From NCBI GenBank assembly GCA_021779135.1, contig JAJYBH010000007.1, positions 1 through 53,484 of the forward strand: a stretch of 53,484 nt of DNA, in the 5' to 3' direction. Position numbers and translations under genes: made by a program. Origin of the DNA: Deltaproteobacteria bacterium. Lineage in GTDB: Bacteria; Desulfobacterota; Desulfuromonadia; Geobacterales; Pseudopelobacteraceae. Below the pieces are notes generated by a model. The model made no database searches. It was not told the DNA's origin and saw only the letters and a list, made by a program, of their open reading frames with translations. This document shows, piece by piece, positions 3,067 to 49,597 of this stretch (position 1 is its first letter; each line of letters begins with the position of its first letter).

Positions 3067-3093
3067 TAAACTTTTCGCCTAATCTGCCGATTC
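3067..3093 (+). promoter_or_regulatory. FliA (sigma-28) promoter of the cheY-cheX module
   Basis: -35 TAAACTTT at 3067-3074 and -10 GCCGATTC at 3086-3093. There are exactly 15 bases between TAAA and the -10, as in the TAAA-N15-GCCGATAA consensus. Transcription should start near 3100, giving a leader of about 70 bases before cheY. Confidence 0.75.
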
Positions 3094-3168: not shown

Positions 3169-3531
3169 ATGCCAGATGTATTGATCGTCGATGATTCTTC
3201 GACCATGAGGAAGATCATCACCCGCTCGCTCAGACAGGCGGGCTTCGTCGTAAATGAAATATATGAAGCCGGGGACGGCATCGAGGGGTTGAACGCCCTG
3301 GCCGCCAATAAGGTCGATCTGATCCTCTCGGATATCAACATGCCGAACATGGACGGGCTGGAATTCGTCAAGTCGGTGCGCGGCAAGGGGATCAAGATAC
3401 CGATCGTGATGATAACCACCGAAGGCGGCGAGGATGTCATCAGCGAGGCGCTGGCCAGCGGCGCCAACGGCAGCATACGGAAACCGTTCACCCCCGAGCA
3501 GCTTGAGGAGAAGCTTGGGGGTTTGCTATGA
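3169..3531 (+). CDS. cheY: CheY-like single-domain response regulator
   Basis: A 120-residue stand-alone receiver. The acidic pocket is VDDSS (Asp8, Asp9), the phosphoacceptor is Asp55 in LSDINMPNMDG, the switch Thr lies in VMITTE and the conserved Lys in RKPFTPEQL. With no output domain it should act by protein contact, as CheY does at the flagellar switch or as a phosphate sink. Its ATG follows GGGAGG. It overlaps the next gene, a CheX phosphatase, by 4 bases, so the two are probably translated together and work on the same phosphoryl group. It is driven by a sigma-28 promoter. The window encodes a second CheY at 42015. Confidence 0.93.
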   Translation: MPDVLIVDDSSTMRKIITRSLRQAGFVVNEIYEAGDGIEGLNALAANKVDLILSDINMPNMDGLEFVKSVRGKGIKIPIVMITTEGGEDVISEALASGANGSIRKPFTPEQLEEKLGGLL

Positions 3532-4034
3532 CTCTGAACGAAACGGTGGTCAACAGCTCGAATCTCCATGAGGAGCAAATCGCCGGCTACGTTATAACTG
3601 CCGCCAAGGAAGTGTTCACGACCATGGTGATGATGGATCTGGATGACCATTATCCGCTGCGCGAGCCGGTTTCAAAACTCCAGTGCAGCATTACCGGCAT
3701 GGTTGGTCTGGCGGGGATATACAGCGGCATCCTCTCCATTCATTGCCCGCAGACCCTTGCGCTCCGGATAACCTCGAACATGCTCGGAATGGATGTGGAT
3801 GAGGTCGGCGAAGACGTAAACGACGCCCTGGGCGAGATAGCCAACATGCTGGGCGGGCATGTAAAACAGGTCCTCTCCAAAGGGGGGCTCGACCTGAACC
3901 TCTCGATTCCCACCGTGATCAGCGGCGAGAGTTACACGGTAAACTGCATGTCTGACAAGGATTGCGTCATCATTCCCTTTTCATGGAATAATGAAAAGTT
4001 CCTGGTCGGTCTGACCCTCAGAAAGGAATGTTGA
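3528..4034 (+). CDS. cheX: CheX-type CheY-phosphate phosphatase
   Basis: A 168-residue protein of the CheC/CheX/FliY phosphatase family, which hydrolyses CheY-phosphate. The signature ALGEIANMLGG gives the catalytic Glu103 and Asn106. There is one such motif and no switch-binding domain, which fits CheX rather than CheC or FliY. The ATGA overlap with the upstream cheY indicates translational coupling. The sequence GLAGIYSGILSIHCP is the typical strand before the signature helix. Assignment to the family is firm; the choice of CheX over a generic CheC-like name is probable. Confidence 0.85.
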   Translation: MTLNETVVNSSNLHEEQIAGYVITAAKEVFTTMVMMDLDDHYPLREPVSKLQCSITGMVGLAGIYSGILSIHCPQTLALRITSNMLGMDVDEVGEDVNDALGEIANMLGGHVKQVLSKGGLDLNLSIPTVISGESYTVNCMSDKDCVIIPFSWNNEKFLVGLTLRKEC

Positions 4035-13702: not shown

Positions 13703-14371
13703 ATGACCATTTCAATCAATAACCTTACGACTTCACCCGCACCGTCGGCGTCAGACTACATGAAACAGACCACCGGCCTCAACAAGGACGACTTCATGAA
13801 GCTGTTCGTCGAACAGATGAAAAATCAGGACCCGCTGGCCCCTCAGGACAGCTCGGCCATGGTGGCGCAACTGGCGCAGATTACCCAGGTGGAGCAGTCC
13901 TACAATACCAACACGAACCTGAAGAGCCTTTTGAGCGCGATAAACAGCTCGTCAAGCATGTCCGCCGCCTCCTTCATCGGCAAGACGGTGGTGGCGCAGG
14001 GGTCCCAGGTCAACCTTTCCGCGGGCGGCCAGCTGCAGCTCAATTTCAATCTGCCCAGCGCCGCCAGCCAGTTGCAGGTCAATATTCAGGACGCGAACGG
14101 CCGCTCGGTCCGGACAATGAACCTCTCAGGCGGCCCGGCCGGTGACGGGTCGATTGTCTGGGACGGCAAGGACAACAATAATTCGGCCTTACCGGCCGGT
14201 CTCTATAGCTTTTCTGTTGCCGGTTTGGCCCCGGATGGCAGCAGCTTCGACGGTACGCCGCTCATCAAGGCGGTAGTGGACGGGGTGAAGCTGTCTCAGG
14301 GATCGACAGTTTTGACCGCGGGCGGTGTCGATGTGCCGCTGGCCACGGTAACGGCGATCAAGGGTCAGTAA
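13703..14371 (+). CDS. flgD: Flagellar hook assembly scaffold FlgD
   Basis: 222 residues. FlgD caps the growing hook. The N-terminal export and interaction region LNKDDFMKLFVEQMKNQDPLAPQDSSAMVAQLAQ is highly conserved. The C-terminal part contains the FlgD Ig-like module (VRTMNLSGGPAGDGSIVWDGKD) and a Tudor-like fold. A strong AAGGAGG lies upstream. The order fliK-flgD-flgE is the usual hook set. Confidence 0.96.
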   Translation: MTISINNLTTSPAPSASDYMKQTTGLNKDDFMKLFVEQMKNQDPLAPQDSSAMVAQLAQITQVEQSYNTNTNLKSLLSAINSSSSMSAASFIGKTVVAQGSQVNLSAGGQLQLNFNLPSAASQLQVNIQDANGRSVRTMNLSGGPAGDGSIVWDGKDNNNSALPAGLYSFSVAGLAPDGSSFDGTPLIKAVVDGVKLSQGSTVLTAGGVDVPLATVTAIKGQ

Positions 14372-14381
14372 CCAGGGATAC

Positions 14382-14394
14382 GTGAATAGTGAGA
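14382..14394 (-). repeat. Dispersed intergenic 13-mer (ATTCAC family)
   Basis: GTGAATAGTGAGA in the flgD-flgE spacer is the exact reverse complement of TCTCACTATTCAC at 19042-19054 in the fliP-fliQ spacer. Confidence 0.6.
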
Positions 14395-14432
14395 AGGTTA
14401 AACTACGGCGTCAGGCCACAAGGAGAGATCAC

Positions 14433-15632
14433 ATGAGCGTTCAATCAGCGATGTATGCGGGAATCAGCGGACTTAACACAAACGGCGAAGGCATGGGTGT
14501 CATCGGCAACAACATCTCCAACGCGAATACCGTCGGCTTCAAGCAGGGGCGGGCCATATTCTCGGACATGCTTTCCACCAGTCTCAATCAAGGACAGATC
14601 GGTCGCGGTGAGCAGGTTCAGGCCGTGCAGAACATGTTCAGCCAGGGTTCCTTCGAGAACACCGGCAGCCCTACCGATCTGGCCATCCAGGGTAACGCCC
14701 TGTTCGTCCTGGCCGACTCGAACGGGGCCGGGCGCTATTACTCGCGGGCCGGTGCCTTCAGCTTTGACAAGAACCAGACCCTGACGAATCCGGACGGGTA
14801 CCAGGTGCTCGGTTTCGGGATAACCAACGGGCTCTCCAACGGTGTGCTGGCGCCGGTCAATCTGACCAGTTTTGCCAATGTACCCCCCCAGGCAACCGTG
14901 ACCATGGGGCTGGTGGCCAATCTCGACGCGACCCAGACGCCGCCGGCGCAGGTCTGGGATCCGGCCCTTCCCGCTTTCAATCCGAATCTCGCCTCGAATT
15001 TCTCCACCAGCGGCACCTACTATGATGCCCAGGGGAATGCCAAATCCTTGACCGTCTATTACCGGAACACCGGCGTCAACACCTGGGAGGTCAATACCTA
15101 CGACGGCACCACCTACACGCCTGCAGGTGCCGGCACTCCGGTTACGTTCAATGCCAACGGCTCGCTTAGCTCCCCCACGACCATCGCCACCAACGGTCTG
15201 ACCCTCGACATCAGCGGGACGACCCAGTACACCAACTCTTCCATTATCTTTTCCCAGACGCAGGACGGTTTTGGAGCGGGCAACCTGTCAAAGGTGACCG
15301 TTGACGACAAGGGCTATGTCAACGGCACGTACACCAACGGGGTGGTGATGAAGATCGCCCAGGTCGGCCTGGCCAGATTCGCCTCGAACGAAGGCCTGGA
15401 AAAGCTGGGTGGCAGCCTGTATGGTGAAACGGTGTCATCGGGCGCCGCCCTTATTTCCGCCTCGAACACGGACAACAACAAGGTGCTCTCCAACTCCCTG
15501 GAACAGAGTAACGTGGATATGGCCGACCAACTGGTTAAGATGATCATCACCCAGCGGGCCTATACCGCCAATTCCAAGACCATCACCACCGCCGACCAGA
15601 TGATGCAGGATACCCTGAACCTGTTGAGGTAA
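14433..15632 (+). CDS. flgE: Flagellar hook protein FlgE
   Basis: 399 residues, typical. The N-terminal axial motif is MGVIGNNISNANTVGFKQGR and the C-terminal helix is LVKMIITQRAYTANSKTITTADQMMQDTLNLLR. It polymerises into the hook. The ATG at 14433 follows AAGGAGA; an in-frame ATG at 14382 lacks a ribosome-binding site and lies in the dispersed GTGAATAGTGAGA repeat. Last gene of the first basal-body operon, followed by a strong hairpin. Confidence 0.97.
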   Translation: MSVQSAMYAGISGLNTNGEGMGVIGNNISNANTVGFKQGRAIFSDMLSTSLNQGQIGRGEQVQAVQNMFSQGSFENTGSPTDLAIQGNALFVLADSNGAGRYYSRAGAFSFDKNQTLTNPDGYQVLGFGITNGLSNGVLAPVNLTSFANVPPQATVTMGLVANLDATQTPPAQVWDPALPAFNPNLASNFSTSGTYYDAQGNAKSLTVYYRNTGVNTWEVNTYDGTTYTPAGAGTPVTFNANGSLSSPTTIATNGLTLDISGTTQYTNSSIIFSQTQDGFGAGNLSKVTVDDKGYVNGTYTNGVVMKIAQVGLARFASNEGLEKLGGSLYGETVSSGAALISASNTDNNKVLSNSLEQSNVDMADQLVKMIITQRAYTANSKTITTADQMMQDTLNLLR

Positions 15633-37893: not shown

Positions 37894-39072
37894 ATGAAAT
37901 ATCTTATTGAACTGTACCTGCATCTGAAAATCAGCATGCGGATAATACTCCTCTGCGTCTGTTACAGCTTCTGCATCATCTTTGCGGTTGTTGCCGGACG
38001 TACGCTTCCGACCACGTTAACGGTTGCCTCGACCGTGGTATTCGTCCTGTTGGGCATGTTTTTCAGCGGACTGCTGTTCTGGTCCATAAATAATGCCCTT
38101 CAGCGCATCATCGGCTATCTGGAAGGTCTGACAGACGGTGATCTGACACAAACGATAGCCGCCCGGCGCAACAACGAGATCAGCACAATCATCCGCTCCA
38201 TCTGCAGCCTCCAGACGACCATGCGCGACATTATTTCGCGGATATCCCAGACCTCCGAGCAGGTAGCCACGGAGTCCCATCAACTCCAGGCAAATGCCGA
38301 AAACATGGCCTCCGGTGCCGAGGAGATCGCCTCCCAGACCAACAATGTTGCCGTTGCCAGCGAAGAGATGGCGGCGACTTCCGGCACGATTGCCCAGAAT
38401 TGCCTCTCCGCCGCCGCAAACTCCAATTGTGCCAGCACAACCGCGCGAGAGGGCGCGGACGTGGTCAGGGAAAATATCCTCGGGATGGAACGCATCGCCT
38501 CCCGGGTGCGTGATGCGGCACAGACCGTCGAAGAGCTCGGCGCCCGCTCCGACCAGATCGGCCAGATTGTCGGCACCATCGAGGATATTGCGGATCAGAC
38601 CAACCTCCTGGCGCTCAATGCCGCCATCGAGGCCGCCCGTGCCGGCGAGCAGGGGCGCGGCTTCGCGGTCGTCGCCGACGAGGTGCGCGCCCTGGCCGAG
38701 CGGACCACCCGCGCAACCAGGGAAATAGGCGCGATGATCAGGTTGATCCAGGATGAGACCAAAGGCGCGGTGACCGCCATGGAAGACGGCGTTGCCGAGG
38801 TCGAGCGAGGCACCGAATCATCGGTAAAATCGGGTCAGGCGCTGGAGCAGATCATGGAGCAGATCAACAATGTCTCCCTGCAGGTCAATCAGATAGCCCT
38901 GGCGGCCGAGGAGCAGAACACCACCACCAGCGAGATCAGCACAAACATCTCGCAGATCACCGATGCGGCGCACTCCACCGGCAGGACCGCCAGTGAAACG
39001 GCCGCCGCATCGTCTCATCTCTCCCAGGAGGCCCTGCACCTGCAACAGCTGGTCGGACGGTTCAAGCTGTGA
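37894..39072 (+). CDS. Methyl-accepting chemotaxis protein lacking a periplasmic sensor domain
   Basis: 392 residues. Two membrane helices, [19 protein letters not shown] and [16 protein letters not shown], are joined by only about 13 residues. A HAMP-like segment and a full signalling domain follow, with tip [43 protein letters not shown]. Without an external domain it may sense membrane or energy state, or an intracellular signal. The tip is nearly identical to that of the MCP at 22058, so the two may join one array. No clear promoter was seen in the 62 bases after fliW. Confidence 0.92.
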
Positions 39073-39701
39073 TACGTGCCGTTCGCTAAGGTGGCTGTTA
39101 TCTTCGGCGGATATGGTGAATTCTAAATCATCAAAGAATCCCTGTCGATAAAGCATCGTATGTAATTGACGTCGCTGCTCGATTATTCAGCGCAGTCCCT
39201 ATCCACCCAATGAGGCAGGGCGTCTCATAGATGACTTCCTCTCCATTGAGATCTCCACGCTCGCAGTTTACCCGAGGCGTACCTTCCAAGATTCAACACC
39301 CGGAGTTCTGTCAACAAACGCTGCTCCGGGCTGTAGCCAACTTTACAATTACATCGAATTGACCATTTCCCCGCTTCTTTCCTCTTCATTTTTTGTGAAC
39401 AGTCGATGTGTGTTTTAATCAGTAAATGTTCGCACTCCCCTGGGAAAATCGGTTGTTTTCGATGTTCCCGTCTCGCTTCGACAGAATCTGATCGTATTTA
39501 AATAATTATATTAAAGTTTCCAATTTAAACGCCGATAACATCAACTAGTTCATCTGAATTGTTCTGACAGGCGCTGATTTCTTTTAGCTGAAGTCTCTTC
39601 AGCTATGAGAACAGTGCTGCGTGAAGATACTGTCGGATCATTTTGTCGGATGCCCGCCCACTGTTGTTTGTCAAATCCGACAACGGAAAGAGACCGACTA
39701 T
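39073..39701. other. AT-rich intergenic region before the che cluster
   Basis: About 630 bases without a firm gene. The last 250 are markedly AT-rich and include the sigma-28 promoter at 39512. On the minus strand a 52-codon TTG-started frame (39131-39289) reads GTPRVNCERGDL then NGEEVIYETPCLIGW. It looks protein-like but I recognise no family and see no good ribosome-binding site; it could be a gene remnant. The plus-strand frame continues upstream of 39702 to a GTG at 39621. Confidence 0.5.
39512..39538 (+). promoter_or_regulatory. FliA (sigma-28) promoter of the main che cluster
   Basis: TAAAGTTT (39512-39519) and GCCGATAA (39531-39538) with 15 bases between TAAA and the -10: a perfect consensus. 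Expected start near 39545. Confidence 0.9.
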
Positions 39702-41606
39702 ATGCTGTTTTTTCAACGAAAAATCAAAATACAGCTCCCATCGGAAATAGCCGATCAGACACATATCCCGCTGAACGAAATGGTTGAAAATGAAAAAGGC
39801 TGCCTTCACGAAGTCCAATCAACGCTTCGCTATCAGCAGGAGCGGCTGTCCCGGTTGGCCGGTTCAACCGAGAATGAATTCCTGGCCACTGGTGCACGAC
39901 TGCAGGAGTTCTATACGCGAACCATGGAGATCGGAGGGACCTCATCGTTGGTGACGGGACAGTTAGACGGAGAAGAAATCGTCAAGGACATCGGCGAACT
40001 GAAGTCCATCATCGATCGGATGGAAGAATTTCTCAACATTGTCGAAGCGGAGTCCGAACAGAGCAGTATGTCCCTGCTGAAGACACTGCAGATGATCGCC
40101 GGAGTGGACGAACCGTTGGCTGGGTTCAAAAAGATCATGAATATTCTTCACGTATTAGGCATCTCCACCAAGATCGAGAGCGCGCGGCTTGGCCAGCTCG
40201 GGGCCGGTTTCAACACCCTGGCTGATGATGTGGAAAATCTCGCGGTACAGATCAGTGACAAATCCAGCAGAATTATGAGCGAAAATGTCTCACTGAGCAG
40301 CAAGATCCAGGAAACCCTCGGACGTATGAATGATATAGAGGCGGGTCAGAGGGAGGACGTGCGACTGGTGCTCGATACGACCCGTTCCAGCCTGGAGATG
40401 ATCACCGGTGTTCACCGGAAATGCGCCGAAGTTGCCTCTGCCATCGCAACGGCATCCGACGAGATTTCACGGAATATCAGCCAGGTTGTCACTTCCATGC
40501 AGTTCCATGACATTACCCGCCAACAGCTGGAACATGTGGAGGAAGCGCTTTGCGACCTGGAGTGCCAGATCGAAGAGGCACGGGCTGCAGGTGAAGTAAA
40601 CGACCAGACTGTTGGCTCAACAAGCAAACTGGCCGGCGATGTGTACGGTGCCTGTCGGCTGCAATCCGCCCAACTGCTCCACGCTCGGGACGGACTCGCT
40701 TCAGCAGTTTCCGGCATTATCGGAAACCTTCAAGGACTCGCCGACAAGGGGCAGGGGATCGTCCGGCAGACCAGGGAGATGATCCGGGCTGCGGACGGGG
40801 CCGGGGATTCCCTCTTTATCGAAATCGAAAAGAATCTTGCTCCGGTGGTGGGTCTTCTGGCAAAAAGCGCGGCTGCAAACAGCAATCTGGCGCGGGCCTT
40901 GGAGTCGGTTGCTGAAACGGTCGGAGAGATCTCCACATTTGTAATCGATATCGAAACGATTGGCGAGGAGATCAAGCTCATCGCCCTGAACTCACAGATC
41001 AAGGCGGCCCGAACAGGAAAAGAAGGTGCGGCGCTCGGGGTGCTGGCGGAAGCCATCCAGCGGCTGTCGGTCGAAGCCTGCCTCCAGACCGCCGCTGTTT
41101 CCGGTACGTTGCGAGATATCACCAGGGTAACGGAAGTGTTTACCGGCAATAACGCAGTCCAGGCCAGCAGCGGCGAACTGGATCCCGAGGCCATGTCAAT
41201 CCGCCTGAAAGCACTCATCGATTCGATCCGGAACATGAACGACGAGGTTATGACGTCTCTTGCGCAGAGCGATGCTGCCGTTCAGGAGTTGACGGATGAC
41301 ATTGAGAGTGTCACCAGCGGGATAACCGTCCATGAACTGGTCGATGCCGAAGTGGGGGAGATAAGCGCCGAGCTGGAAAAGGTCATGGCCCGGACCTGCG
41401 AGATAGTCCCCGAAGCGGCCACGATTGATCTGACATCGCTGGCCGGGCGGTACACCATGCAGAGCGAACGAGAGATCCACAATTCGTTTACTAGGGAAGG
41501 TGCAGTTGCCTTGAACAGTACGTCCGTACAGGTCTGGGATTCGGTTTCTCCTGCGGAAACCGGAGAAGTAGAGCCGGATCTGGGAGACAACATCGAACTT
41601 TTTTGA
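39702..41606 (+). CDS. Soluble MCP-like protein with two degenerate signalling tips
   Basis: 634 residues, almost all helical, with no membrane segment or HAMP domain. Two regions resemble the CheA/CheW-contacting hairpin of MCPs. The first, residues 148-183, includes GISTKIESARLGQLGAGF followed by NTLADDVENLA. The second, residues 424-456, includes IKLIALNSQIKAARTGKEG followed by LGVLAEAIQRLS. Both depart from the near-invariant [21 protein letters not shown] pattern. It heads the che cluster after a consensus sigma-28 promoter. ATG 39702 follows GGAAAGAG; a GTG at 39621 would add 27 residues without a visible ribosome-binding site. Receptor, scaffold and CheA regulator are all possible roles; none is shown by the sequence. 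Confidence 0.75.
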   Translation: MLFFQRKIKIQLPSEIADQTHIPLNEMVENEKGCLHEVQSTLRYQQERLSRLAGSTENEFLATGARLQEFYTRTMEIGGTSSLVTGQLDGEEIVKDIGELKSIIDRMEEFLNIVEAESEQSSMSLLKTLQMIAGVDEPLAGFKKIMNILHVLGISTKIESARLGQLGAGFNTLADDVENLAVQISDKSSRIMSENVSLSSKIQETLGRMNDIEAGQREDVRLVLDTTRSSLEMITGVHRKCAEVASAIATASDEISRNISQVVTSMQFHDITRQQLEHVEEALCDLECQIEEARAAGEVNDQTVGSTSKLAGDVYGACRLQSAQLLHARDGLASAVSGIIGNLQGLADKGQGIVRQTREMIRAADGAGDSLFIEIEKNLAPVVGLLAKSAAANSNLARALESVAETVGEISTFVIDIETIGEEIKLIALNSQIKAARTGKEGAALGVLAEAIQRLSVEACLQTAAVSGTLRDITRVTEVFTGNNAVQASSGELDPEAMSIRLKALIDSIRNMNDEVMTSLAQSDAAVQELTDDIESVTSGITVHELVDAEVGEISAELEKVMARTCEIVPEAATIDLTSLAGRYTMQSEREIHNSFTREGAVALNSTSVQVWDSVSPAETGEVEPDLGDNIELF

Positions 41607-41652
41607 ATTAGTACAAATAAACCGGCCTATTGCATCATGCCAGGATGGGATT

Positions 41653-42015
41653 ATGAGCGACTTTTCAGTAACAACTTCAACTCCGAAGGAAACTCCTTCC
41701 GTTAAAGAGATCGGCATCAGCGGTCCCATGACTATCCAGCATGCCGGCGAGATCAGGACCGTCCTGTTGGAGGCGCTGACCGAGGCGGAAGAGGTCCGGA
41801 TGGAAATGGCACAGGTTACGGAGATTGACGTTGTCGGCCTGCAGCTTCTCTGCTCGGCCCACAGGACATCGGCCGGCCTGAACAAGCGATTCACTCTCGG
41901 CGGCTGCAATGAAACCAGCGTCACTGAAGCCATGCGAATGTCGGGGTTCGCGCGTCACGTCGGCTGCGTACAAGATATCAATCATACCTGCCTTTGGCTT
42001 GGAGGTAAAAAATAA
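41653..42015 (+). CDS. STAS-domain protein lacking the phosphorylatable serine
   Basis: 120 residues with the STAS fold: ISGPMTIQHAGEIRTVLLEAL, then EVRMEMAQVTEIDVVGLQLLCSAHR. Typical anti-sigma antagonists read DSSGL or DTSGL here, with Ser or Thr as phosphate acceptor. This protein has Asp59-Val60-Val61, so phosphorylation control of the SpoIIAA type is unlikely. It lies between the MCP-like gene and cheY, overlapping the cheY ATG by one base, and probably works as a protein-interaction module in the chemotaxis complex. Confidence 0.8.
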   Translation: MSDFSVTTSTPKETPSVKEIGISGPMTIQHAGEIRTVLLEALTEAEEVRMEMAQVTEIDVVGLQLLCSAHRTSAGLNKRFTLGGCNETSVTEAMRMSGFARHVGCVQDINHTCLWLGGKK

Positions 42016-42380
42016 TGGCTAAGATAATCATGACGGCCGATGACTCGGCCAGCGTCCGTCAGATGGTGAGCTTCACGCTCAAGCAGGGCGGCTACGACGT
42101 AATCGAAGCGGTCGACGGTATGGACGCCCTGACAAAACTGCAGTCAACCAAGGTCGACATGCTCATCACCGACCTGAATATGCCCAACCTGGACGGAATT
42201 GGCCTGATCAAGGCTGCGCGCGCCATTCCGGCGTGCAAGTTTATCCCGATTGTCATGCTCAGCACGGAATCCCAGGACACCAAGAAACAGGAAGGCAAAG
42301 CTGCAGGGGCCACCGGCTGGATCATAAAGCCATTCAAACCGGAACAACTGATTGCAGTTGTCAAAAAGGTGCTTGGATGA
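42015..42380 (+). CDS. cheY: Chemotaxis response regulator CheY
   Basis: 121 residues. Acidic pocket TADDS (Asp9, Asp10), phosphoacceptor Asp53 in ITDLNMPNLDG, Lys in IIKPFKPEQL. GGAGG precedes the ATG. It overlaps cheA by 4 bases (ATGA), so it is the likely primary phosphoryl acceptor of that kinase and, by family, the ligand of FliM. Confidence 0.95.
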   Translation: MAKIIMTADDSASVRQMVSFTLKQGGYDVIEAVDGMDALTKLQSTKVDMLITDLNMPNLDGIGLIKAARAIPACKFIPIVMLSTESQDTKKQEGKAAGATGWIIKPFKPEQLIAVVKKVLG

Positions 42381-44467
42381 CGGATCAACATGGGCAGGCA
42401 TATAAAGAAGAGGCGTATGAACTTCTGGCCGAGCTGGAAACCTCCCTGCTGGAACTGGAGGAAAGCCCCGACGATAGGGAGCTGATCGGACGAGTGTTCC
42501 GTGCCATGCATACCATCAAGGGTTCCGGAGCGATGTTCGGATTCGATGACATCGCTGCTTTTACCCACGAGGTAGAGACGGTTTTCGACCTGGTGCGCAA
42601 CGACAAGCTCACGGTCACAAAAGAACTGATCAACCTGACACTGGCAGCCCGCGACCAGATCACGGCTATGCTGGATGCATCGGGAGGTGCCGGGTCGGTC
42701 AACGCCTCTGTCTCAGTAAAGATCATAAACGGCCTGCGAGCGTTGCTGCCGCAAGCGACAACATCTGCTGCGCCTGTCGCAGTCCCTGTCGAAACGGGTC
42801 CGGCAACAACCCTCAATGGAGTGACTTACCGGATTCGCTTCCGACCGTCACGCGATATCTTTGCCAATGGCACCAATCCGATAGGGTTGCTGAACGAACT
42901 GCGCGAACTCGGCCAAAGCAAAGTTCTTGCCCAACTGTGCAACATCCCCGTTTTGACGGATCTGGATCCGGAAACCTGTTACATTTACTGGGACGTGATT
43001 CTGACAAGCGGGCGGGGGATTGACGCCATCAGGGATGTATTTATCTTCGTTGAGGATGACTGCGAGATAAATATCGACGTGATTGAAGACGGTATACCAG
43101 GAGACGAAGGTTGCGACAAGAAGCTCGGCGAGATCCTCGTGGAGCGAGGTGACCTCGCTCCTGATGACATGCATGAGATAATCGCCACACAGAAGCGTTT
43201 TGGCGAGATCCTGGTGGACAAGGGTCTGGTGACTCCCGAGAGCGTACAAACGGCCCTGGTGGAACAGAGGTATGTCAAGGAGGTGCGCAAGGAGCGGCAG
43301 AAACTGGAGGCTGCGGCCAGTATCCGCGTGCCGGCGGAGAAGCTGGATATCCTGGTAAATCTGGTGGGGGAACTGGTGACGATCCAGGCCCGACTGACCC
43401 AGACCGCAAACGGCCGTCAGGATTCAGAGCTGGAAACCATTGCCGAAGAGGTGGAACGGCTGACCGGAGAACTGCGTGACAATGCCCTGAATATCCGAAT
43501 GCTTCCTATCGGCAGCACATTCAGCAAGTTCAAGCGCCTGGTCCATGACCTCTCCAATGAACTCGGCAAACAGATCGAGATGACTACTGCGGGTGCTGAA
43601 ACGGAATTGGACAAAACCGTCATCGAAAAGCTGAACGACCCGCTTGTCCACCTGATCAGGAACAGCATCGACCATGGTATCGAATCACCGGAATCAAGGC
43701 AGGCAGTTGGCAAAACACGTATGGGCACAATCCATCTGGCGGCGACCCATTCCGGTGACAGTGTCCTCATCACCATAACCGATGATGGCGCCGGATTGGA
43801 CAAAGAGGTGATCCGGGCCAAGGCTATTGAAAAGGGACTGATAACCGCTACCGCGGAATTAACGGAGAAGGAGATTTTTGCTCAGATATTCGCACCCGGT
43901 TTTTCCACTGCCAAAAAAGTGACCAATGTTTCCGGACGCGGGGTGGGTATGGATGTTGTCAAGCGCGCCATCGATGCCCTGAGGGGCAGGATCGAAATCA
44001 GCAGCAGGCGCCGGGAAGGTACGACGATCAGCATCCGGATTCCCCTGACGCTTGCTATCATTGAGAGCCTGCTTGTGAAGATCGGAGTTGACCGGTTCCT
44101 TATCCCGCTTTCTCTGGTGCATGAATGCGTGGAGCTTACCCGTACCGACGTGGCCAATGCCCACGGAAGGAACCTGGCCGCTGTTCGCGGACAGATGGTT
44201 CCCTACATCCCACTCCGCAAGAGATTCTGTATCGGTGGCGAAGCACCGGATATAGAACAGATTGTCATTACCCAGGTTGACGGCATACGCGTCGGAGTGG
44301 TGGTTGATCATGTAATCGGTGAACACCAGACCGTCATCAAATCGCTCGGAAAAGTATACCGTGACGTGAGCGGAGTCTCCGGAGCGACGATTCTTGGGGA
44401 TGGAGCCGTGGCTCTGATACTGGACATCCCGCATCTGCTGCGCGAGGTGGAACTGGAAGCCCCCTGA
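42377..44467 (+). CDS. cheA: Chemotaxis histidine kinase CheA with an inserted tandem repeat
   Basis: 696 residues. The HPt domain (about 1-108) has His45 in AMHTIKGSGAMFG. A P2-like region follows (about 148-236). Residues 249-297 hold two copies of a 24-residue motif, KLGEILVERGDLAPDDM... and RFGEILVDKGLVTPESV..., similar to MshEN/GspE-N repeats. Then come the dimerisation helices (IRVPAEKLDILVNLVGELVTIQARL), the ATPase domain (HLIRNSIDHGIE, DDGAGLD, GRGVGMDVV) and the CheW-like domain. ATG 42377 overlaps the cheY stop; a longer frame back to 42233 lies inside cheY. Confidence 0.96.
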   Translation: MTDQHGQAYKEEAYELLAELETSLLELEESPDDRELIGRVFRAMHTIKGSGAMFGFDDIAAFTHEVETVFDLVRNDKLTVTKELINLTLAARDQITAMLDASGGAGSVNASVSVKIINGLRALLPQATTSAAPVAVPVETGPATTLNGVTYRIRFRPSRDIFANGTNPIGLLNELRELGQSKVLAQLCNIPVLTDLDPETCYIYWDVILTSGRGIDAIRDVFIFVEDDCEINIDVIEDGIPGDEGCDKKLGEILVERGDLAPDDMHEIIATQKRFGEILVDKGLVTPESVQTALVEQRYVKEVRKERQKLEAAASIRVPAEKLDILVNLVGELVTIQARLTQTANGRQDSELETIAEEVERLTGELRDNALNIRMLPIGSTFSKFKRLVHDLSNELGKQIEMTTAGAETELDKTVIEKLNDPLVHLIRNSIDHGIESPESRQAVGKTRMGTIHLAATHSGDSVLITITDDGAGLDKEVIRAKAIEKGLITATAELTEKEIFAQIFAPGFSTAKKVTNVSGRGVGMDVVKRAIDALRGRIEISSRRREGTTISIRIPLTLAIIESLLVKIGVDRFLIPLSLVHECVELTRTDVANAHGRNLAAVRGQMVPYIPLRKRFCIGGEAPDIEQIVITQVDGIRVGVVVDHVIGEHQTVIKSLGKVYRDVSGVSGATILGDGAVALILDIPHLLREVELEAP

Positions 44468-44718
44468 CAGGTCGGAACGATCACGCTACAGTTTTGCATA
44501 AGCAGGGATAATACGACACTGGCTGCATGAAGTTTCTGTTGTAATTACAGTAACTTCCCTGCATTTCCCGTAATACAGATATGAATACTGCACCCGTATT
44601 GTTGCGTTTTCAACATCTGAATGTATTTGTGCTGATCTGTTTCCCGTCGTTCGGCTTGATCGCAATCGTTTGACCAGTGATCATAAGAAGGTAAAGCATA
44701 CCTGGAAAAGGAGAGTTT
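44468..44718. other. Spacer between cheA and cheW
   Basis: 251 bases without a gene inside an otherwise tight cluster. I found neither a sigma-28 nor a sigma-54 promoter. It contains GTAATTACAGTAA (44541-44553), identical to 23971-23983 upstream of flhA. Confidence 0.5.
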
Positions 44719-45252
44719 ATGAGCGTTGCAGCCATCACGGAAACAACCCAATACCTGACCTTTGTACTAGATCGGGAAACCTTCGCGCTGGATGTTGCCA
44801 AGGTCCGGGAAATACTGGACTCACCCGGCGTCACCAGGGTGCCGCAGACCCCGGAGTACATGCGGGGAGTGATCAATCTGCGTGGCAGCGTAGTGCCGGT
44901 AATCGACCTGCGCTTGAAGTTCGGCATGTCCGAAACAGTGCAGACGGTCAATACCTGTGTCATCGTCGTGGAGATCGATGTTGAGGGTGAACTGATCATC
45001 CTGGGAGCACTGGCTGACTCGGTGCAGGAGGTGATCGACCTGGAGTCGGAACAGATCGAACCGGCGCCGCGCATCGGTACGAAACTCAATACCGACTTCA
45101 TTAAAGGTATTGGCAAGCATAACGAGCAGTTCATTATGATCCTCAACATTGACAAGGTCTTTTCGTCAGAGGGATTGACTTCAATTCGAGAGACCGGAAC
45201 GGAATACTCCAAACCGGACAGCAATTCAAGTGGCTCCGACTTTGCTTCTTAG
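44719..45252 (+). CDS. cheW: Chemotaxis coupling protein CheW
   Basis: 177 residues. TFVLDRETFALDVAKVREIL, YMRGVINLRGSVVPVIDLRLKFG and GALADSVQEVIDLESEQI are all present. AAAAGGAG lies before the ATG. It lies 33 bases ahead of an MCP gene; the two presumably form a receptor-coupling unit with the CheA encoded upstream. Confidence 0.96.
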   Translation: MSVAAITETTQYLTFVLDRETFALDVAKVREILDSPGVTRVPQTPEYMRGVINLRGSVVPVIDLRLKFGMSETVQTVNTCVIVVEIDVEGELIILGALADSVQEVIDLESEQIEPAPRIGTKLNTDFIKGIGKHNEQFIMILNIDKVFSSEGLTSIRETGTEYSKPDSNSSGSDFAS

Positions 45253-45285
45253 ATAAATAAACAGAATAATAATAAGGAGATAACT

Positions 45286-46962
45286 ATGTTAAAGAATGTT
45301 AAAATCGGCACCCGCCTGGGTCTGGGATTTGGTTTGGTACTGACGATCTTTATGGTAGCAGTAGTTGTCGTGACCTTCATGTTTCGAGGTATCAGCACGC
45401 AGTCGGCCCAGGTGAAAAACGAATCCCTGCCGTTTCTGATCACTGCCTATGAATTGGATGTGAACGTAATCAGCCTCTCCGAGACATTGACTGATGCCGC
45501 CGCGACCCACAACCTTGAAAGCCTGAAGGAGGCGGAGAAGAAGTATAAAGATGTTGTTGCGGATCTCGATAAATTCAAGGAAATGTTCAAACGTGAGAAC
45601 GATACGGCTCTCTTGAAAGCAACGGAAGAGATCTCCGTGGATGCTTCCCGTTTTTATGAACAAGGCAAGAGCATGGCGCACACGTATATGGAAAAAGGAC
45701 AGGTCGACGGTAACAGAGCCATGGCTGAGTTTGACAAGACCCGTGCCCCGCTGCTGGAAAAGGTGGAAAAGATGCAGAGGCTGCAGACGGATGAGGCCAA
45801 TAAAAGTTCCGAAGATGTTGTTGCCGCTTCTGCCAAAGGTACAAAGACTCTTATTATCCTGGGCGGTTTTTCCTTGATGTCGGGGATTCTCATTGCTCTT
45901 TTCATAACCCGTTCGATCGTCGTGCCGATCCGGCTGGCAGGGGAGATTGCCGACCGCCTGGCTGAAGGGGATCTCACCATAAAGGTCGAAGCGACAAGCA
46001 AGGACGAGACCGGTCAACTATTGGGCGCCATGAAAAACATGGTGGAGAGGCTCAAGGAGATCGTCAGCGAGGTGCAGTCGGCCTCCGACAACGTAGCTGC
46101 CGGAAGCCAGGAGCTCTCCTCCAGTTCGGAGCAGATGTCTCAGGGGGCCAGCGAACAGGCGGCGGCCGCCGAAGAGGCCTCCTCCTCCATGGAGCAGATG
46201 TCTTCCAACATCAAACAGAACGCCGACAATGCCATTCAGACGGAAAAAATCGCCTCCAAATCCGCGCTGGATGCGCAATATGGCGGTAAGGCAGTGGGCC
46301 AGACCGTGACGGCCATGAAAGAGATCGCTGGCAAGATTTCTATCATCGAGGAGATCGCTCGGCAGACCAACCTGCTGGCCCTGAACGCAGCCATCGAGGC
46401 TGCCCGGGCCGGTGAGCACGGTAAAGGGTTTGCCGTGGTGGCCTCAGAGGTGCGCAAGCTGGCCGAAAGGAGCCAGAAAGCCGCCGCCGAGATCTCTGAG
46501 CTCTCTTCGTCCAGTGTTGAAATTGCCGAGAAGGCCGGCGAGATGCTGAACAGCATGGTTCCCGACATTCAGAAGACCGCCGAGCTGGTCCAGGAGATCA
46601 GCGCCGCCTGTCGGGAGCAGGACACCGGTGCCGAACAGATTAACAAGGCCATCCAGCAACTGGACCAAGTCATCCAGCAGAACGCTTCAGCTTCTGAGGA
46701 GATGTCTTCAACTGCCGAAGAGCTGTCTTCCCAGGCTGAGCAGTTGCAGGGCAGCATCGCCTTCTTCAAGGTTGATTCGCACAGCACGCATTCACCATCC
46801 CATGCCCCGGCCAAATCTGCGCGCAAGGCTCCGGTAAAGCATATCGCTCATCTCAAGCCTGCAGGGCATGAGCGAAAGGTTGTCGACTCGGGTATCCGTG
46901 GTGTGAGTCTGGTCATGGATGAGGGGGGAGATAACCTGGACAATTCCTTTGAGAAGTTCTAA
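45286..46962 (+). CDS. Methyl-accepting chemotaxis protein with helical periplasmic sensor
   Basis: 558 residues. Membrane helix 1 about 13-34, periplasmic four-helix-type sensor about 35-185, helix 2 ([21 protein letters not shown]), HAMP domain, then a signalling domain with tip [44 protein letters not shown]. This tip differs from the DQTNLL...[23 protein letters not shown] type of the other two MCPs here, hinting at a different array. The C-terminal end has no NWETF-type CheR tether. AAGGAG precedes the ATG. A hairpin follows 6 bases after the stop. Confidence 0.96.
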
Positions 46963-46968
46963 TGCCCA

Positions 46969-47009
46969 CCAATTACCAGGGGATGGCGGATGCCGCCCCT
47001 GGTAATTGG
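46969..47009 (+). terminator. Strong hairpin between mcp and cheR
   Basis: CCAATTACCAGGGG (46969-46982) pairs perfectly with CCCCTGGTAATTGG (46996-47009). The 13-base loop can pair further (GGC with GCC). No clear T-run follows, so partial termination or mRNA processing is as likely as full termination. It would lower expression of cheR-cheD-cheB relative to the receptor. Confidence 0.6.
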
Positions 47010-47104
47010 GCATGCCGTCTCTTTATACCTCAATTACTTCTGAAACATGGCGATACATATCAACAAACATCAACGGTGACGACGTTATTACAGGAGTTGC
47101 GACA

Positions 47105-47965
47105 ATGTACAATAGCGGCCCCGCCTTCGAGAATTCTGCCGCGACCATGTCGAGTCGGGAATTCGCCCGCATGAGCAGCTTTATTTACGAGCAATGCGGC
47201 ATAAAGATGCCCGTGACAAAGAAGACCATGCTGGAGGGCCGTCTCCAGAAGAGGCTTCGAACGCTGGGGATGAAGAATTTTGAAGAGTACGGCAACTACC
47301 TGTTCAGCCCGGAGGGCATCCGGCTGGAAGTGGTGCAGATGATTGACCTGGTCACCACCAACAAGACCGATTTCTTCCGCGAGCCTGAGCACTTTGATTA
47401 CCTGACGGAACAGGTGTTGCCGGAGTGGTGCCAGAAATATGGTTCCCGAAAACTTACGGTCTGGAGCGCGGGCTGCTCCACCGGCCAGGAACCCTATACC
47501 CTGGCCATGGTGATGAGCGAGTTTGCAGAACGACAGCCAGGTTTCGATTTCCAGATACTGGCCACCGATATCTCCACCAGGGTCCTGGAGAAGGCGATAA
47601 ACGCCGTTTATGCCGAGAGTCTAATCAGTCCGGTCCCTCCGCACTTGAAAAAAAAATATCTTCTCCGCAGTAAGGATCGTAGCAGCGCCCTTGTGCGGAT
47701 TGTCCCTGAACTGAGAGGAAAGGTCCGTTTCCGGCGGCTGAATTTCCTGGATGATGACTTCGGATTGCGCGAACCGCTCGATATCATCTTCTGCCGCAAC
47801 GTCGTTATCTATTTCGACCGCCCAACCCAGGAGCGGTTGTTGCAGAGATTTCACGATCATATGCGTCCTGGTGCCCATATCTTCATGGGGCATTCCGAGA
47901 CCCTGAGCGGGCTTGATGTGCCACTGATCAGCGTCTTCCCGACTGTCTACCGGAAGATGAAATGA
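47105..47965 (+). CDS. cheR: Chemotaxis methyltransferase CheR
   Basis: 286 residues. CheR methylates receptor glutamates with S-adenosylmethionine. The SAM site is VWSAGCSTGQEPYTLAM; DIIFCRNVVIYFDRPTQERLL and FMGHSETL are also typical, as is LVTTNKTDFFREPEHF. ATG 47105 has AGGAG about 9 bases upstream; an in-frame start at 47006 would begin inside the hairpin. It overlaps cheD by 4 bases. Confidence 0.95.
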   Translation: MYNSGPAFENSAATMSSREFARMSSFIYEQCGIKMPVTKKTMLEGRLQKRLRTLGMKNFEEYGNYLFSPEGIRLEVVQMIDLVTTNKTDFFREPEHFDYLTEQVLPEWCQKYGSRKLTVWSAGCSTGQEPYTLAMVMSEFAERQPGFDFQILATDISTRVLEKAINAVYAESLISPVPPHLKKKYLLRSKDRSSALVRIVPELRGKVRFRRLNFLDDDFGLREPLDIIFCRNVVIYFDRPTQERLLQRFHDHMRPGAHIFMGHSETLSGLDVPLISVFPTVYRKMK

Positions 47966-48477
47966 GCCCCACAGGGCAAAAACCTGCCGGGCACTACCTC
48001 AAGCCGGGAGAGTTGTTTTTTGGAGAAACGGCGACCATGGTATCGACTCTGCTCGGTTCCTGCGTGGCTGTTACCATGTTCTCTCCGCGCTGTCGGGTCG
48101 GGGCCATCTGCCACGTCCTGCTGCCGTCTCGACGGGAAGAGCACCACTGTCCGGGCAGTTGCGATGAGGGTGCCAGGTATGTGGACTGTGCCCTGCGGCT
48201 GATGCTGGACTGGTTCACCCAGCGCGGGATCGTGCGCAGCGAGATCGAGGTCAAGGCCTTTGGCGGTTCGGACATGTTTGCCGTCAAGGGTGAAGAGAGC
48301 AGGTCGCTGACCGTGGGCAGGCAGAATCTCGAATTGGCCCTGCACCTTATCAAAAAGGCCGGCTTGCGTCTGTATGCATCGGACCTGGGAGGGCCGAGCG
48401 GGCGGAAGATATTTTTTTCCACCCATACCGGCGAGGTGCTGCTGAAACGGTTGAACAAGTCTCAGCGCAAGGTGTGA
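47962..48477 (+). CDS. cheD: Chemoreceptor glutamine deamidase CheD
   Basis: 171 residues. The catalytic set is visible: Cys34 in LLGSCVAVTMFSP, His51 in GAICHVLLP, Thr29 nearby, and the KAFGGSDMF motif. CheD deamidates receptor glutamines and can bind CheC; a CheC-like protein is encoded at 4097. Coupled to cheR by an ATGA overlap. Confidence 0.95.
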   Translation: MSPTGQKPAGHYLKPGELFFGETATMVSTLLGSCVAVTMFSPRCRVGAICHVLLPSRREEHHCPGSCDEGARYVDCALRLMLDWFTQRGIVRSEIEVKAFGGSDMFAVKGEESRSLTVGRQNLELALHLIKKAGLRLYASDLGGPSGRKIFFSTHTGEVLLKRLNKSQRKV

Positions 48478-48529
48478 AGCGCTCGGCGTCTTTTTTCAGT
48501 GAAGAAAATACGATTCCTCGGGACAGTGT

Positions 48530-49597
48530 ATGAAGAAAAAGATACGGGTACTGATTGTCGATGATTCTGCCGTGGTGCGCCAGACTCTGGCAGAGATTCT
48601 TTCTTCCGACCCGGAGATAGAGGTTATGGCAACGGCCTCCGACCCGTTTGTTGCCGCCGAGCGGCTCAGGCATGAGGTGCCGGACGTCATCACCCTGGAT
48701 GTGGAGATGCCCCGCATGGACGGCATCACCTTTCTTCAGAAGATTATGAGCCAGCATCCCATTCCGGTTGTGATGTGCTCCAGCCTGACGGAGAATGGTT
48801 CGGAAACCGCCCTGAAGGCCATGGACTATGGGGCGGTGGAGATAATCCAAAAACCGCGTCTGGGAACCAAACAGTTTCTGGAGGAGTCGCGGATGAGAAT
48901 CTGCGATGCGGTCAAGGCGGCCAGCAAGGCACGGGTGAAGAACATCCCCACTCATCGGCACGAGGTGGCTCCCAAGCTGACCGCCGATGTGATCATGGCG
49001 AAAGCGACCTCCAAGGCGATGATGCAGACGACCGAAAAGGTGGTGGTGGTTGGCGCCTCTACCGGTGGTACCGAGGCATTGCGAATCTTTCTCGAGTCGT
49101 TTCCTGCCGATTGTCCGGGAATCGTCATTGTACAGCACATGCCGGAAGGCTTTACCAGAGCCTTTTCACAGCGTCTCGACGGACTTTGCCGCATCACGGT
49201 CAAGGAGGCTGCCGACAACGATACGGTGGTGCGCGGCCGTGCCCTGATAGCGCCGGGCAACCACCATCTGCTGCTCAAGCGCAGTGGTGCCCGCTACTAT
49301 GTGGAGGTGAAAGACGGTCCGCTTGTCTCGCGACACCGTCCTTCGGTGGATGTGTTGTTCCGCTCGGCGGCTCGTTATGCCGGCAAGAACGCGGTGGGGG
49401 TGATCATGACCGGCATGGGCGACGATGGAGCCAAGGGGATGTTGGAGTTGAAAGAAGCCGGTGCTCGGAATATTGCCCAGGATGAGGCGTCATCTGTCGT
49501 CTTCGGCATGCCCAATGAGGCGATCAAGCTGGGTGGGGTGGATTTTGTCCTGCCGCTCAGGGGCATCTCCGCTGAGGTCCTCACGTTATGCGGATAG
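48530..49597 (+). CDS. cheB: Chemotaxis methylesterase/response regulator CheB
   Basis: 355 residues. Receiver domain with Asp57 ([11 protein letters not shown]), a linker, then the esterase domain with the triad Ser177 ([10 protein letters not shown]), His203 (VQHMPEGFT) and Asp299 (MGDDGAKGM). It removes methyl groups from receptors after phosphorylation by CheA, giving adaptation with CheR. Last gene of the che cluster. Confidence 0.97.

Follow-up and report, generated by a model that had tools for sequence, protein, structure and literature searches.

Soluble proteins with two chemoreceptor signalling domains in one chain have been described before. Vibrio cholerae DosM, which lacks a sensor, has two tandem signalling domains and links two CheA/CheW baseplates (PMC7534058, PMC9321776); natural soluble single-chain double MCP domains were noted between 2005 and 2015 in Rhodospirillum centenum and others, with their role unexplained; and engineered single-chain receptors (Tsr~Tsr) work (PMC4692393). 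Among proteins that dephosphorylate CheY-P, CheZ has DxxxQ as its phosphatase motif and, beyond a linker, a conserved C-terminal peptide that binds CheY (PMC7750401), and S. meliloti CheT, according to a review, is a CheY-P phosphatase with DxxxQ that falls outside the CheZ sequence family. Geobacter genomes are without cheZ, and a CheZ-independent mechanism must operate in them (Tran et al. 2008).

We describe here a gene of a Geobacterales bacterium whose product has two receptor tips and a single CheZ-like site, and which we call the two-tip protein. We consider it somewhat better than even (probability about 0.55) that this protein is an array-docked CheY-P phosphatase, CheZ-like in action, built on a tandem-duplicated receptor hairpin. 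The window, meaning the whole stretch of 53,484 nucleotides that was analysed, contains the following features around the gene.

37894-39069: minimal MCP (P0002), 392 aa, directly upstream of the two-tip gene
39512-39538, + strand: sigma-28 (FliA) promoter TAAAGTTT-N11-GCCGATAA, 0 mismatches, about 165 bases 5′ of the start codon
39702-41606, + strand: open reading frame of the two-module receptor-tip protein, 634 aa
39834-40586, + strand (residues 45-295): module 1, a long helical hairpin bearing tip 1 and the DxxxQ site (AlphaFold2 on the module alone, pLDDT 86.9)
40143-40250, + strand (residues 148-183): tip 1, ISTKIESARLGQLGAGF, matched by PF00015; the E385-equivalent is E159
40485-40535, + strand (residues 262-278): CheZ-like motif VVTSMQFHDITRQQLEH, aligning on CheZ D143/Q147
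40509-40511, + strand: proposed catalytic D270, in the register of CheZ D143
40521-40523, + strand: proposed catalytic Q274, in the register of CheZ Q147
40611-41426, + strand (residues 304-575): module 2, the second hairpin and, by hhalign, a duplicate of module 1
40962-41072, + strand (residues 421-457): tip 2, LIALNSQIKAARTGKEGAALGV, matched by PF00015; the E385-equivalent is replaced by K434
41316-41348, + strand (residues 539-549): decayed second copy of the motif, SGITVHELVDA, by hhalign register; the position of Q274 is A549, unconserved
41451-41480, + strand (residues 584-593): YTMQSEREIH motif, common to the one-module relatives
41580-41603, + strand: C-terminal tail LGDNIELF, a proposed CheY-binding or tethering peptide, preceded by a variable linker
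41653-42015, + strand: STAS-domain protein (PF13466/PF01740), the conserved next gene by synteny
42015-42380, + strand: CheY (PF00072, synteny), the proposed substrate
42377-44467, + strand: CheA, with Hpt, H-kinase_dim, HATPase_c, and CheW domains
44719-49597, + strand: remaining cluster of CheW, HAMP-type MCP, CheR, CheD, and CheB

An alternative GTG start at 39621, upstream of the start at 39702, would give a protein of 661 aa. The minimal MCP at 37894-39069 is nearly devoid of a sensor part and lacks the methylation-site consensus. Rfam gave no match within 39000-42100.

PF00015 (MCPsignal) matched the 634-aa protein with a whole-protein E of 1.1e-17, and a genome-wide search with this profile gave two separate matches within it, both above the Pfam cut-off, at residues 151-267 (40152-40502, E 1.7e-10) and at residues about 394-541 (40881-41324, E 4.4e-9). 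The protein thus shares the signalling hairpin of MCPs, but differs from them in that HAMP, membrane, and sensor regions are all absent: Pfam families of the HAMP and sensor kinds give no match in the 634 residues, and there is no membrane helix, the highest 19-residue hydropathy mean being 1.23. All of this agrees with the first-pass annotation, which had seen two MCP-tip motifs in a protein lacking these three parts; its description of the tips as degenerate, however, has to be given up. We found 80 two-module homologues (alignment counts are from 78 of them, spacing and tail counts from the 77 full-length ones), and in the 78 both tip motifs are kept, with a mean identity to the column consensus of 79% for tip 1 and 86% for tip 2, as against 44-56% for most other helix. 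Both tips rank among the most conserved stretches of the protein, and since their conservation exceeds that of the other helix we regard them as diverged but strongly selected rather than decayed. The tips are asymmetric, in that the receptor-invariant glutamate (E385 in Tsr) is a glutamate in tip 1 and lysine 434 in tip 2; on the sequence, this E159/K434 difference could set the partner choice of each tip. A regular-expression search for the methylation-site consensus gave 0 matches in the two-tip protein and likewise 0 in the ordinary-looking MCP P0002.

An AlphaFold2 model of the full-length protein, built from an alignment of 40 homologues, is all-helical (mean pLDDT 81.5, pTM 0.59). The model of module 1 superimposes on the T. 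maritima soluble receptor 3g67_B (Z 13.2, 1.9 Å, 212/212 residues, to be read with the caveat that high Z-scores are common among helical bundles) and on the E. coli receptor tip 6s1k_E (1.2 Å, 102/102 residues), and chemoreceptors fill its best 14 Foldseek matches; module 2, taken within the full model, fits 6s1k_E at 2.3 Å over 102 residues. Antiparallel hairpins are therefore predicted at both tips, and an opposite reading, prompted by DSSP helices that run unbroken through both tips, was overturned by these structural matches. Each module resembles 3g67 and other cytoplasmic MCPs in its hairpin fold (1.9 Å over 212 residues), and differs from them in that those are single-module homodimers with neither a DxxxQ site nor a tail. 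The matches listed by the fold searches were receptors, toxins, and further helical bundles; CheZ was absent among them, which proves nothing. Residues 132..470 are fitted, at 1.7 Å over 127 residues, by 8a3k, a designed antiparallel four-helix bundle made of one chain, and because the aligned ranges span both modules the model suggests, though not firmly, that the two hairpins lie alongside each other with their tips at a shared end, much as in a receptor dimer but within a single chain. A pseudo-dimer is likewise expected of the R. centenum-type single-chain MCPs and of Tsr~Tsr, which also have two signalling hairpins per chain.

These features invite comparison with DosM, and with the earlier suggestion of a double-headed scaffold that bridges or blocks arrays: the tips would insert in CheA/CheW baseplates and hold or bridge arrays, while the motif and tail described below would do no more than bind. 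DosM, too, is a soluble single chain with two MCP signalling domains and no sensor (PMC9321776), the tips of the two-tip protein are highly conserved, and neither its N-terminus nor its C-terminus has a sensor. DosM, however, has its tips at opposite ends, engages two baseplates, and sits in F9 clusters with a triple CheW, whereas the present cluster is of the cheY-cheA-cheW-mcp-cheR-cheD-cheB type, each CheW match of the genome lies in its own reading frame, and no multi-CheW ORF, triple or otherwise, was found there. Bridging needs tips at opposite ends and is weakened by the predicted placement of both at one end, and a plain scaffold would have no need of a D..RQQ.EH kept invariant in module 1 alone, or of a one-module relative that bears this motif and the tail as well. 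Engagement of CheA/CheW is a likely part of the earlier suggestion; as an account of the whole protein we hold an array scaffold to be unlikely. The CheZ-like DxxxQ, the C-terminal tail, and the one-module relatives point instead to a CheY-directed enzyme rather than to a plain scaffold or blocker.

The putative catalytic site lies in module 1. Q267, D270, R273, Q274, E277, and H278 are identical in 78/78 homologues, and the resulting Q..D..RQ motif fits the CheZ catalytic signature FQD[LI]TxQ (D143, Q147), the site reading SMQFHDITRQ in the two-tip protein, SIQFQDITRQ in one-module members of the family, and AQDFQDLTGQ in E. coli CheZ. Specifically, i) D270/Q274 fall in register with CheZ D143/Q147 in module 1, one-module, two-module, and pooled alignments, compared independently; ii) the one-module, two-module, and pooled alignments reach E 0.006-0.010 to CheZ, versus 0.04-0.17 for reversed controls; iii) the NCBIfam CheZ model NF041271 matches at the place of the motif in the Methylosinus protein P0005 (2.5e-5, the best), in L128 (3e-4) and L151 (5e-4), in the two-tip protein itself (P0001, 0.0043), and in P0004 (0.035), and no CheZ model was among the matches listed for four ordinary MCPs that this genome encodes (25 of 27 for one MCP); and iv) a scan of 395 genomes of the phylum for the motif as DNA found it in 50 and the backwards pattern in 0, with 28/30 sampled motif loci carrying it within the two-/one-module family. 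The curated CheZ cut-offs are not reached (PF04344, E 0.7; NF041271, 16.6 bits at E 0.0043 against a cut-off of 350), and the profile-profile probability to CheZ is about 5%, in a class of long coiled coils that give spurious matches. Because the CheZ matches are recurrent yet below every curated cut-off, we claim a likeness of the site to that of CheZ and not proven homology; the sequence matches are too weak to make the two-tip protein a CheZ homologue.

The site also keeps its place along the hairpin. The spacing from the tip glutamate (E385-equivalent) to the D is 111 residues in 74/77 two-module proteins and 109-116 in the six one-module proteins measured, and the DxxxQ position corresponds, in receptor (Tsr) numbering, to what we take to be the second methylation helix. 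In module 2 the D is mostly E at this register and the Q is unconserved, while the tip is kept, as expected if one site is catalytic. H269, R273, E277, and H278 are invariant in the family yet are not CheZ hallmarks, and the conserved patch could be a binding site. The likeness to CheZ comprises an [A/S]xxF[QH]D[IL]TxQ signature carried by the returning arm of a long hairpin of helices, a flexible linker and conserved C-terminal peptide, and a gene adjoining cheY and cheA; the model of the two-tip protein is a bundle of two long hairpins within one chain, which may recall the four-helix bundle of CheZ. The differences are that the two-tip protein is three times longer, carries receptor tips, has one site per two hairpins and extra invariant H, R, and EH, and scores below cut-off with CheZ profiles. 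Likewise it shares with S. meliloti CheT, as described in a review, a DxxxQ motif and helical structure, and differs from CheT as there described, which is small, has no receptor tips, and forms a complex with CheR.

At the C-terminus, N630 and F634 are identical in 78/78 homologues, the GDN[VI][ED]LF-type tail is invariant in two-module homologues, and N[IVF][ED][LF]F forms the end of 77/77 full-length ones; [IVF][ED][LF]F similarly ends 26/26 full-length motif proteins of the phylum scan (one with one extra residue), a count that leaves out two proteins cut by contig or locus ends. The linker before the tail is the least conserved part of the protein (27%). By analogy, the tail is perhaps parallel to the CheY-binding tail of CheZ, although it is shorter. 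A tail that is C-terminal after a flexible linker also recalls the NWETF peptide, and would suit a sensor-less pseudo-receptor which, as a dominant decoy or regulator of CheA, would join mixed receptor trimers and shift kinase output while tethering CheR/CheB. Receptor-like tips with conserved E159 and N430 fit such a role, as does the control of CheA by engineered single-chain receptors (PMC4692393); we nonetheless find it more doubtful than the scaffold, as the tail has no aromatic at pentapeptide position 2, the two-tip protein has no methylation-site consensus (though the minimal MCP P0002 lacks one too), and the DxxxQ motif and its spacing are left unexplained.

The two halves of the protein are, by sequence comparison, a tandem duplication of a one-module protein of 340-460 aa found in other genomes. 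Module 1 aligns with module 2 over 231 columns (hhalign Prob 95, E 1.7e-8), and the one-module profile aligns with both modules, over 245 columns with module 1 (E 2e-21, Prob 99.4) and over 283 columns with module 2 (E 1e-18, Prob 99.1), where the alignment takes in the YTMxSERxIH motif, part of these last two scores being the shared receptor hairpin. Since the DxxxQ and C-terminal motifs align in register, we place one-module and two-module proteins in one family. The YTMxSERxIH motif is common to both forms across phyla. Two-module homologues range over Geobacterales-type genomes, Syntrophorhabdia, Ignavibacteria/Bacteroidota, and Deferribacteres, and among the close relatives searched all gave some match and most a full-length one. 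The one-module form occurs in Desulfobacterota (L127, L128, L129, L138, L151) and, plasmid-borne, in Sphaerotilus and Methylosinus; plasmid sequences gave no relative of the complete two-module protein, and viral contigs none of the two-tip protein. In L113, a Deferribacteres MAG, each module has an ORF to itself (311 and 312 aa), by a frame break or a natural split. The present genome has a two-module paralogue (L001:14457-16388 on contig C89, 36% identity) with two weaker PF00015 matches. It reads HDIMRQQ, with D and Q kept, and lies in a second che cluster, after a stand-alone CheB esterase domain (13999-14562) and directly before cheY.

The two-tip gene opens a cluster that continues with STAS, CheY, CheA, CheW, HAMP-MCP, CheR, CheD, and CheB and is read from 39702 to 49597, as the first-pass annotation, which placed it first after a sigma-28 promoter, had it. 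In the homologues the order two-tip-STAS-cheY-cheA is kept in nearly all of 80 loci, and the Photobacterium order cheY-cheZ-cheA resembles it. One-module genes lie directly 3′ of a receiver gene of cheY size in 5/5 Desulfobacterota loci, and both plasmid genes (Sphaerotilus, Methylosinus) adjoin response regulator genes. The STAS gene is a constant neighbour between the two-module gene and cheY. Adjacency to cheY, a STAS gene that is always next in two-module loci, and a conserved patch extending beyond D and Q would all suit a platform that sequesters or delivers CheY (or the STAS protein), its patch and tail binding CheY without catalysis, for example as a phosphate-sink or localisation device. 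One-module relatives, however, have no STAS neighbour in the sampled flanks, and the active site of CheZ has exactly this D-x-x-x-Q spacing, together with the FQDIT context; of the alternatives weighed here we rate this platform the least probable.

A census of phosphatases found CheZ above cut-off in 0/39 related genomes, the present one included, and CheX, another CheY-P phosphatase, in 38/39; in the window it lies at 3528-4034. With CheX present, the pathway does not strictly need another phosphatase. Phosphatases of the CheX/CheC/FliY kind share the reaction proposed for the two-tip protein and are also encoded in the present genome, where the CheC-type matches are the CheX-like genes; they differ in having an unrelated fold and an ExxN-type site. 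By gene content, the E. coli-like che cluster appears to have no phosphatase of its own apart from the two-tip candidate.

The sigma-28 promoter ahead of the gene is perfect, as originally reported, and sites with ≤3 mismatches are expected 0.07 times per whole window. Five more, with 2-3 mismatches, lie at window positions 3067, 23780, 33370, 49921, and 53189; six sites against 0.07 expected in all mark the window as a region of the sigma-28 regulon. Among orthologues, 7/78 upstream regions have a sigma-28 site with 13/16 positions matching, versus 0.6 expected; because this excess is moderate and the sequences are partly related, we read flagellar control of the two-tip gene as clear in the present genome but not general.

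If the two-tip protein is an array-docked phosphatase, its two hairpins would form an intramolecular pseudo-dimer whose tips share one end and anchor the protein in the CheA/CheW array; CheY-P would be captured by the flexible C-terminal [IV][ED][LF]F tail, as it is by the tail of CheZ; and D270 would orient, and Q274 activate, the water that attacks the CheY phospho-aspartate, the outcome being signal termination at the array in bacteria without CheZ. The hairpin might also convey the state of the array to the phosphatase site, but this is purely speculative. More tentatively, with confidence short of even, we propose that the family is a widespread class of CheY-P phosphatase evolved from the receptor signalling hairpin, with its site at the second methylation helix and dephosphorylation that array state could control; it would comprise a one-module form beside cheY in Desulfobacterota and in alpha- and betaproteobacteria, and, in clusters of the Geobacterales type and others, a form with two modules fused.

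The first-pass annotation knew of no described system of this kind, and in this DosM (PMC7534058, PMC9321776) and the R. centenum proteins contradict it: the soluble architecture with a double signalling domain is already known, while the phosphatase-like site and the family appear to be undescribed, no paper on the two-tip/one-module family having been found in the open-licence literature. By their descriptions, DosM and the single-chain MCPs are set apart from the two-tip family by its DxxxQ site, tail, type of cluster, and lack of a triple CheW, the CheZ-like site being absent from the descriptions of DosM (PMC7534058, PMC9321776), with which the comparison is by description only. Natural single-chain double MCPs, compared in the same way, may nevertheless be of the same family.

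For Geobacter-type chemotaxis, which has an E. coli-like cluster without CheZ, the two-tip protein, whose gene is in the right place, offers a concrete candidate for the off-switch. Were the phosphatase reading borne out, the protein would represent a new class of CheY-P phosphatase, a signalling scaffold that had become an enzyme of its own pathway, and some at least of the natural single-chain double receptors would gain a function. Proteins annotated as methyl-accepting chemotaxis proteins would then include a family that may be phosphatases.
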